64,000 nt of DNA from Chitinophagaceae bacterium BSSC1. Its GTDB lineage: Bacteria; Bacteroidota; Bacteroidia; Chitinophagales; Chitinophagaceae. The translations under genes and the position numbers were made by a program. Of this stretch, positions 35,868-38,971 are shown piece after piece. Numbering within the stretch: the stretch's first letter is position 1; each line of letters opens with the position of its first letter. The stretch spans positions 291,996-355,995 of the forward strand of contig NKJC01000002.1 of the NCBI GenBank assembly GCA_002256435.1, in the 5' to 3' direction. The notes beneath the pieces are model-generated. The model saw only the letters and a program-made list of their open reading frames with translations. It ran no database searches and was not told the DNA's origin.

Positions 35868-36557
35868 ATGCGCTACTGTCTAGTACCATTTCTCCTTTTA
35901 ATTTATAATATTGGCTTTGGCCAGTGTAAAACATTTAAAATTGCCGCCAATGGCGATACTTTAAATTGTACAGATTTCAATGGATTCAAACAAGGCAAAT
36001 GGACGGTACATGTAGAACCATTAAGAGGGAATCCAGGTTTTGAGGAAGAAGGCGTTTTTAAAAATGATAAAAAGGAAGGGGTTTGGAGAAATTTTAATTT
36101 AATGGGCGATATCATGGCTGTAGAAACCTACCGTTGGGGTTTGAAAAACGGAAAATGCCAATATTTTACTATTAACGGGATTGAAAGAGAAGAAAATTGG
36201 CGTGCCAGTAATCCCAACAAAGCCTATGATACTATTGACGTTGCCGACCCTCTGATTCCCAATAAATATGAACGTGTGATTGTAAAAGTAGATGGAACCT
36301 CCCTAAAACACGGGGTTTGGAAATACTATAACCCCATGTATGGAACTGTAACCCATACGGAAAAATGGGTATTAGATAACTTACAGGGTGATCAACCCGA
36401 GTCATTGGCTAAATCTGTGGACCCTACAGTACCGGATTCTCTTGGTGGGGACCCAAAAAAGACCCTCTCTAAACCAAAACCAAAGGAGGTAGAGGATTTT
36501 GAAAAGAAAAATAAGGGGAAAAAGAGTAAAGTCAGGGATGGTAAAACCGGAACCTAA
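35868..36557 (+). CDS. YwqK/MORN-like repeat secreted protein
   Basis: GFKQGKWTVHVEP, FKNDKKEGVWRNFNLMGDI, RWGLKNGKCQYFTINGIE, SLKHGVWKYYNP. Confidence 0.6.
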   Translation: MRYCLVPFLLLIYNIGFGQCKTFKIAANGDTLNCTDFNGFKQGKWTVHVEPLRGNPGFEEEGVFKNDKKEGVWRNFNLMGDIMAVETYRWGLKNGKCQYFTINGIEREENWRASNPNKAYDTIDVADPLIPNKYERVIVKVDGTSLKHGVWKYYNPMYGTVTHTEKWVLDNLQGDQPESLAKSVDPTVPDSLGGDPKKTLSKPKPKEVEDFEKKNKGKKSKVRDGKTGT

Positions 36558-36621: not shown

Positions 36622-37242
36622 TTGGAACGAAATCTGAACCATACTATTTACTTTAGAAATTTGCCCCAGGAACCTATTAACATCATCAGCCTGATAAAGG
36701 GTTGTAGCCAAAACAACCGAATCAGCCAACGGGACTTATACCATTGGCTGCATGGCTATGCTATGAAAATCAGTTACCGATACATACAGCAACAAGAGGA
36801 AGCCGAGGAATTGGTGAGTGAAGCTTTTGTGAAACTGTTCAAAAACATAGCCCAATTTGATAGTAGCAGGCAAAATGACCAAGAAGCTTTACTTAAAGCT
36901 TGGTTTAAACGAATATTGGTCAATACTTGTATAGACCATTTGCGTAAAACACAACTGAAAATGGTGAGTTATGACGTAACGCCGGAAACAGAACCGATGA
37001 TTGAAAAGCAAGAAAGCGGTTTGGACAAAATTGCTTACCAAGAAATCATTTTGGCTATTAGAAGGCTTTCTCCTGTTTATAGAACCGTTTTCAACTTGTT
37101 TGTCATAGAAGGATTTAGTCATGAAGAAATTGCGGATACTTTAAAAATAAGTGTAGGCGCCTCAAAATCAAACCTGTCAAAAGCCAGGAATAATTTGAGA
37201 AAAATCATTTTAGAGAAAAAAGCGTATAAGCAGTATGCATAG
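36622..37242 (+). CDS. ECF-type RNA polymerase sigma factor
   Basis: EEAEELVSEAFVKLFKNI (sigma2), LSPVYRTVFNLFVIEGFSHEEIADTLKISVGASKSNLSKARNNLRKII (sigma4). TTG start, uncertain. Confidence 0.92.
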   Translation: MERNLNHTIYFRNLPQEPINIISLIKGCSQNNRISQRDLYHWLHGYAMKISYRYIQQQEEAEELVSEAFVKLFKNIAQFDSSRQNDQEALLKAWFKRILVNTCIDHLRKTQLKMVSYDVTPETEPMIEKQESGLDKIAYQEIILAIRRLSPVYRTVFNLFVIEGFSHEEIADTLKISVGASKSNLSKARNNLRKIILEKKAYKQYA

Positions 37243-38491
37243 TTTTGAGGAAGATAATGAATTGGATCATGTAGCCAAAAGGGCTGCCGAGGCATTTGAT
37301 GCCCCCGGCATGGCAAATTGGGACAAGATGCAATTATTACTGGATAAGGAAATGCCCCTAGAGAAACCTAAAAAAAGGTTTTTATGGGTGTTAATACCTG
37401 CTTTGCTCTTATTGGGCATTGGGGGGGCATGGTGGTATAACCATGTTGATCAACAACTTGAGGTTAAAGAAACTACTACAAAGCCAGAACCAAGTCAAAC
37501 AACATTACCCATTGATCAACAAGCTACTTTTGAACAAAAAAAATCAACCCCAGCTGAAGCACTAACTAGTGCTAATAGTAGCCAAAATCAAACAAAGGAT
37601 TTAGTAGCAACAAAATCTGTTCAAACAAGTCCTAGTTTATTGAGTCAAATGGGGATACCAATTGGGCCCGTTGACCAAGTATTGGCTAAAGAAAATAGTC
37701 AAACAAACATTTCTCCAAATAATAACGAACTGCTTCAAGCCGCAAGTAGTACAAATACGGTTCAAGAAAATAATACTTCATCTGATTTAAATACAAAAGT
37801 ATCTAGCACCCTACATCAAACAACAACTACCAATACAAATTTGACAGAAGAAAAGTCTAGTAGCATTGTCATTAAAAACAAAAACAATACTGAAAAAGGA
37901 TTCTTTATTGGATTAACAGCAGGGATTGACGCTAGTACGGTACATTTTAATTACAAGGAAGACCTGGGTTACAATATTGGAGGCTTGATTGGATATAGAT
38001 TCAACCAACATTTCTCTATTAAAACAGGTGGAATATATACCCAGAAAAATTACAAAATGAATGGTGTAGATTTTCATGCGCCTAAGGGAACATGGGTCAG
38101 CTATTTCAAAATGGAAACGGTAACAGGATCATGTGATATGTGGGATGTTCCTCTAATAGGCACCTACCATTTTAAGTATAATGGAAAAGGTAATTATTTT
38201 GCTTCACTAGGTACTTCTTCATATTTTATGAAGAAGGAGAACTACACCTATTTATATTATGTAAATAATCAAACTTATAATAGATCTGCCAATTATCCTT
38301 CAAATGACCAGCATCTATTTGCCTTGCTTCATATTTCAGGTGGCATTGAAAAACCAATGGGAAAACACCTCACAGGCATTATTGAACCCTATGCTAAAAT
38401 TCCAATGGGAGGAGTAGGTTTTGGAAGTATAGAACTGAGTAGTTTTGGTGTAAATTTTTCTTTGACTTATAAGCAACCAAAAAGAAAATAG
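37235..38491 (+). CDS. Candidate dual-membrane-spanning anti-sigma factor (cytosolic domain + TM + linker + OM beta-barrel)
   Basis: No N-terminal signal peptide; TM FLWVLIPALLLLGIGGAWWY at residues ~49-68; S/T/N/Q-rich linker ~71-220; PorT-like barrel ~221-418. 8-nt overlap with ECF sigma. Confidence 0.72.
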   Translation: MHSFEEDNELDHVAKRAAEAFDAPGMANWDKMQLLLDKEMPLEKPKKRFLWVLIPALLLLGIGGAWWYNHVDQQLEVKETTTKPEPSQTTLPIDQQATFEQKKSTPAEALTSANSSQNQTKDLVATKSVQTSPSLLSQMGIPIGPVDQVLAKENSQTNISPNNNELLQAASSTNTVQENNTSSDLNTKVSSTLHQTTTTNTNLTEEKSSSIVIKNKNNTEKGFFIGLTAGIDASTVHFNYKEDLGYNIGGLIGYRFNQHFSIKTGGIYTQKNYKMNGVDFHAPKGTWVSYFKMETVTGSCDMWDVPLIGTYHFKYNGKGNYFASLGTSSYFMKKENYTYLYYVNNQTYNRSANYPSNDQHLFALLHISGGIEKPMGKHLTGIIEPYAKIPMGGVGFGSIELSSFGVNFSLTYKQPKRK

Positions 38492-38523: not shown

Positions 38524-38913
38524 ATGACTTATCAGAAAAAACATTCCTTACAATTTCTAGCTGTAAGTTTAGCTATGATGGCATTAATAGCTTGCAGTAA
38601 AAGTAGTGACACTGGTTCTGGAACGCCAAGTTCTTCCGACTGTGCTGCATTGGTTACCGGACAAGCAGGTCCTTTGTATACAGCAGTAAAATCAATGATG
38701 GCCTCAAATTGTTCTTCCTGTCATACGGGCAATAATGGTACTGGTGGTAAAGACTTAACCACTGATTGCAATATCATCAGTAATAAAGATAGAATCAAAG
38801 CCAGAGGCGTTGATGGCTCTCCTAGCTTTATGCCTCAGGGTAGTCAATTGAGTGCAGCCGACAAGAAAAAAATATCTGACTGGGTTAATGCAGGCGGCAG
38901 GTTCAGCGATTAG
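38524..38913 (+). CDS. Mono-haem c-type cytochrome lipoprotein
   Basis: Lipobox LIACSK; single CxxCH (NCSSCHTG); SFMPQGSQLSAADKKKISDWVNAGG. Confidence 0.82.
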   Translation: MTYQKKHSLQFLAVSLAMMALIACSKSSDTGSGTPSSSDCAALVTGQAGPLYTAVKSMMASNCSSCHTGNNGTGGKDLTTDCNIISNKDRIKARGVDGSPSFMPQGSQLSAADKKKISDWVNAGGRFSD

Positions 38914-38945
38914 GGGCAATTGCTTGAATCGGCCTGTATTCTCAT

Positions 38946-38971
38946 AAAGCGACCCTCTGGGTTGCTTTTTT
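38946..38971. terminator. Intrinsic terminator between convergent genes
   Basis: aaagcgaccc-tct-gggttgctttttt; one G-T wobble. Confidence 0.7.

Follow-up and report, generated by a model that had tools for sequence, protein, structure and literature searches.

The sigma-dma locus

The window analysed here is the whole 64,000-nucleotide stretch from Chitinophagaceae bacterium BSSC1, and the parts of the sigma-dma locus, from the promoter P1 to the terminator, lie on its forward strand. One of these parts is a gene whose product is an ECF sigma factor belonging to the Das/Dma clade (36661..37242), which was recognised from Pfam (Sigma70_r2, 3e-13; Sigma70_r4_2, 2e-14), from the lengths and alignment of its homologues and from a tree. 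The start codon is probably TTG 36661, giving a protein of 193 aa, because the nearest homologue (L040) aligns there; an alternative TTG at 36622 would give 206 aa. The sigma ORF (36622-37242) shares 8 nt with that of a 418-aa protein (37235-38491), exactly the overlap reported in the initial annotation of this DNA. Upstream lies a 229-aa protein without a Pfam match (35868-36557), which is conserved ahead of the locus in many members of the genus.

The 418-aa protein, here called Dma, was modelled with AlphaFold2 on an alignment with 44 homologues. Residues 1-48 (37235..37378) form a cytosolic N-domain with helices at 7-20 and 29-39 and the conserved residues A17 and W29, and are presumed to be the anti-sigma domain. 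A transmembrane (TM) helix at residues 49-71 (37379..37447) follows the motif KPKKR and leads into a periplasmic tether, residues 72-215 (37448..37879), that is variable in the alignment and predicted to be disordered, with pLDDT mostly 42-58. The C-terminal part, residues 222-413 (37898..38473), is an OmpA-like beta-barrel of nine predicted strands with a block pLDDT of 89-98. Its closest folds in Foldseek were the 8-stranded barrels of OmpA, NspA and OmpX, from which the closure of the barrel was judged, and Pfam OMP_b-brl_2 (PF13568) matched the protein narrowly above the cut-off; a search of the PDB by sequence with the Dma profile found nothing.

The observation of a sigma factor followed by a protein of the two-membrane type was confirmed. 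The model reproduced the cytosolic segment of about 48 aa, the single TM helix and the PorT/OmpA-like barrel of the initial annotation, and only two limits had to be moved: the helix, placed at about 49-68, has the proposed start and runs on to about 71, and the disordered low-complexity stretch, placed at about 71-220, is present but ends near 215. The claim that this ORF has no signal peptide also held, as none was seen ahead of the TM helix when the sequence was read by eye. Such a protein would be inserted in both membranes and would act on its neighbour as an anti-sigma factor.

Conservation and relation to the Bacteroides systems

Dma was matched in 82 of 150 genomes of the window's bacterial family, and 53 of 297 Bacteroidota genomes match its profile (E 1e-6). 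Among the family loci read in detail, 33 of 34 keep the same sigma gene directly upstream of dma, nearly always overlapping it, so the adjacency is not a matter of chance; the initial annotation had staked its proposal on a conserved neighbourhood, and the neighbourhood is conserved. The pair recurs across Bacteroidota, and 76 non-redundant sigma-Dma pairs were gathered from the family loci and more distant genomes.

Several variants were met along the way. The BSSC1 genome carries three more sigma-Dma pairs (L061:5671-7633, L062:6908-8993 and L063:5614-7597), and no RGCAACC promoter of the kind described below was found upstream of their sigma genes. It also holds a split version (L064:2056-4531), in which the sigma gene is followed by genes for two separate proteins, one of 354 aa with a single TM helix and an N-terminus that may be an anti-sigma domain, the other of 296 aa and outer-membrane-like. 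A sigma gene at L080:5406-8379 is followed by a gene for a chimera, a plug-like and von Willebrand A-like protein that carries an N-domain and a TM helix resembling those of Dma; the module of these two parts has thus been reused. This chimera was considered as a natural fusion of sigma factor and N-domain on which their interface could be modelled, and rejected, being of a different kind, as were two fusions of Bacteroides faecis (L172 and L173) in which the sigma factor is joined straight to a TM helix.

The Dma of Bacteroides thetaiotaomicron is reportedly linked to vesiculation. Its sister species B. faecis, reached with a fragment of the SusD of B. thetaiotaomicron (PDB 5CJZ), served as the comparison genome. 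The best four of 43 matches to the sigma profile in that genome were two sigma-Dma pairs (L170 and L171) and the two sigma-barrel fusions L172 and L173, which are of the Dma3 type. One pair adjoins a NigD-like gene, as in Das1/Dma1, and the other has a three-gene order like that of the das2-dma2 operon; from these layouts we infer that the B. faecis genes are Das1/Dma1 and das2-dma2. In a tree, the window sigma factor, all sampled Dma-linked sigma factors and the four from B. faecis formed one clade (support 0.985), with the other 26 B. faecis ECFs outside it. The Dma HMM matched the B. faecis members with E-values of 1e-7 to 2e-5 in a small sequence set, and hhalign placed the window barrel against the Dma2-like protein with a probability of 92.8, E 4e-7 and 16% identity over the aligned part. 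The barrel alone aligned in this profile comparison, and the N-domains of the window Dma and of Bacteroides Dma gave no alignment. The resemblance to Bacteroides Dma, put forward in the initial annotation, is borne out by the sigma clade, the barrel match and the locus layouts, and the 418-aa protein with its sigma factor is supported as a Dma-type pair.

In the published systems, Dma consists of an N-terminal sigma-binding domain, a TM helix, a disordered tether and a barrel, and adjoins an ECF21 sigma factor (PMC13088901). The window pair shares with Dma1/Das1 and Dma2/Das2 (PMC13088901) this order of parts in one protein and an adjacent sigma factor from the same clade. It differs in the distant sequence of its barrel (the 16% identity to B. 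faecis), in its predicted target, a gene for a cytochrome c lipoprotein preceded by a predicted promoter of its own, P2, in the structured RNA at the 3' end of the locus, and in its predicted RGCAACC promoter, for which the B. faecis Das genes showed no upstream match. With the Dma3 proteins L172 and L173 it has in common a sigma factor of the same wider clade, a TM helix and a barrel, but there the sigma factor is fused to the membrane protein, whereas in the window sigma and Dma are encoded by two overlapping genes.

Predicted promoters and the cytochrome gene

Two copies of AGCAACC-N16-CGTA accompany the pair. P1 (36572..36598) is predicted to serve the sigma-dma operon as its ECF promoter, with transcription starting at about 36605. 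P2 (38472..38498), a second predicted promoter for the sigma factor, has its -35 within the last dma codons, at the dma stop, and lies 26 nt before the cytochrome ATG. They are the two matches to GCAACC-N15/17-CGTA in the window, where 0.08 would be expected. RGCAACC-N15/16-CGTA precedes the sigma-Dma genes in 39 of the 76 non-redundant loci, against 0.03 expected from shuffles, and the strict motif is missing from the other 37. A strict P2 match stands at the same place in 22 of 35 genus contexts, versus 3.3% of background windows, and several contexts without one have a GGCAACC box with a CGTT variant.

Genome-wide, the five motif matches, two of them in the sigma-dma locus, do not exceed the six of a reversed control, so the case for P1 and P2 rests on position and conservation. 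Of the other three matches, one falls within a gene encoded on the other strand (L183), one has no called gene downstream in the fetched stretch (L181) and one precedes a gene for a 280-aa putative lipoprotein (L182). Strict matches also occur inside the dma coding sequence of the relatives L052, L057, L072 and L043, where they may be promoters within the gene that serve the operon behind it. The predicted RGCAACC-type promoter of sigma-dma loci is new in this analysis.

The gene behind P2 (38524..38913) encodes a cytochrome c lipoprotein, with PF13442 above the cut-off, the lipobox LIAC and a single CXXCH, the haem motif CSSCH. P2 stands ahead of it, and it is therefore a predicted direct target of the sigma factor. 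The initial annotation had already pointed to a downstream cytochrome c gene, and cytochrome c-type genes do follow dma in 18 of 34 family loci, accompanied in about ten by tRNA_anti-like, YceI and DUF5777 genes. Elsewhere in the BSSC1 genome, YceI-DUF5777 sets with tRNA_anti-like or cytochrome genes are present at L176, L177 and L178, where the promoter pattern had no match.

A conserved RNA hairpin and terminator

The last feature of the locus is a structured RNA element (38888..38969) composed of an outer stem, an inner stem with a GGGGC loop and, at its end, an intrinsic terminator (38946-38968). The two-stem hairpin overlaps the cytochrome stop codon wherever that ORF is present, the window included, and has folding z-scores of -3.2 to -6.5. 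A covariance model, R1, built from nine loci with the window left out, had its sole match in the BSSC1 genome at 38888-38969 (E 6e-5); it matched in 24 of 147 genus genomes, and 23 of these matches adjoin dma. Rfam gave no match in the window and, in relatives, only microRNA matches far below the cut-off. At ten genus loci, seven of them found first, the cytochrome ORF is gone and P2, the hairpin and the terminator are kept.

In a 23-sequence alignment, 95.8% of cells were paired, against 91.5% after shuffling, and 11 pairs had changed on both sides, against 4.5; none of 500 shuffles reached any of five measures of covariation, in an alignment (A5) that was fitted to the model structure and so favours this result. 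In an alignment of nine sequences made without fitting to the structure, 95.8% of cells were likewise paired and covariation was weaker. Judged by sequence, the features asked of a small RNA, namely a promoter of its own, a conserved structure and a terminator, are all present. This conserved 3' RNA at the dma locus is also new in this analysis; the initial annotation mentioned neither the promoters nor the RNA. The element is probably functional in its own right, and the simplest role for it is that of a small regulatory RNA.

Alternative interpretations

The best-placed competing explanation, which we nonetheless consider rather unlikely, accepts the Dma pair and both promoters and sees in the RNA only a stabiliser and terminator of the 3' end of the P2 message with no role in trans, the cytochrome-less loci being decaying remnants. 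It agrees with the position of the element, which overlaps the last cytochrome codons and finishes in a terminator, and with a search for RNA targets complementary to the conserved loop, which gave about one extra match per genome and found no target. Remnants, however, would be expected to drift. In the seven cytochrome-less loci first found, whose Dma proteins are 42-54% identical except for one close pair (72%), the noncoding block is 83-95% identical among five and 60-76% identical to the two most diverged, yet the leader is mostly 28-57% identical and has acquired indels. P2 is strict in all ten such loci, and in a tree the cytochrome-bearing L191 and L193 are nested among them (supports about 0.8), which suggests that the ORF was lost repeatedly and the RNA retained.

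A clearly weaker case can be made for a one-membrane anti-sigma factor, or for a protein cut between the TM helix and the barrel, with the barrel acting alone. The disorder of the tether in the AlphaFold2 model would allow this, and the split arrangement of sigma, one-TM and outer-membrane-like proteins at L064 in the same genome offers a parallel, but tether and barrel are retained in one polypeptide across the 44 homologues and in the Bacteroides members. It is very improbable that the P2 transcript of cytochrome-less loci codes for a small peptide: short ATG frames of 8-26 codons occur in seven of the ten, but they vary in start, length and sequence, three loci have none, the leader has diverged with indels, and the variation tracks base pairing. 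Ordinary FecI/FecR-type regulation with a TonB transducer is the most far-fetched of these readings, for although ECF sigma factors next to membrane anti-sigma factors are common in Bacteroidota, no FecR or secretin/TonB domain was found in the 418-aa protein, which contradicts a FecR-type anti-sigma factor for this pair at sequence level, and the window sigma factor belongs to a clade that leaves out the other 26 B. faecis ECFs.

Proposed mechanism and implications

We therefore return to the Dma-type pair with a regulatory RNA. In the mechanism proposed, the N-domain of Dma would hold the sigma factor at the inner membrane, the tether would span the periplasm and the barrel would serve as the sensor in the outer membrane. 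If the protein works like Bacteroides Dma, the sigma factor would be released by a cue that acts on the tether or at the outer membrane, and would then recognise RGCAACC-N16-CGTA promoters. Transcription from P1 would provide feedback on sigma-dma, and that from P2 would cover the cytochrome c lipoprotein gene and close with the conserved hairpin and terminator. The 3' RNA would be part of the cytochrome mRNA here and a stand-alone transcript of about 100-130 nt in relatives without the ORF. Given the two predicted promoters and the conserved RNA, the sigma factor probably switches on three things: its own operon, the cytochrome gene and an RNA with a possible role as a small RNA. That the locus is a Dma pair whose sigma factor drives P1 and P2, the latter giving a cytochrome message with a functional 3' RNA, is in our judgement a likely account as a whole.

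A parallel in logic is MicL of E. coli, a sigma-E-dependent small RNA from the cutC 3' region (PMC9438474): like the window RNA it is a 3' RNA, and its ECF-dependent promoter likewise lies inside a coding gene or at its end. The window RNA differs in being a prediction, and there is no homology, the sigma factor and the sensor both being others; the comparison is one of logic. We give about even odds that the Bacteroidota have here an independent counterpart to the sigma-E/MicL branch. Within this phylum, a precedent for an RNA behind a CGT-box promoter of the ECF type is Rfp11, a putative RNA of Flavobacterium psychrophilum, and the passages of that source drawn on here describe no link to a Dma locus (PMC9723704).

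Dma proteins provide a means of signalling across two membranes in a single chain. The present locus adds a conserved RNA output to a predicted promoter code and a direct target that is likewise predicted, and the regulon thereby becomes accessible to experiment whatever the signal is. Redox chemistry or periplasmic electron transfer is suggested as part of the response by the cytochrome c output. Should the RNA prove to be a regulator, Bacteroidota would have evolved envelope-stress small RNAs under a sensor quite different from that of sigma-E.
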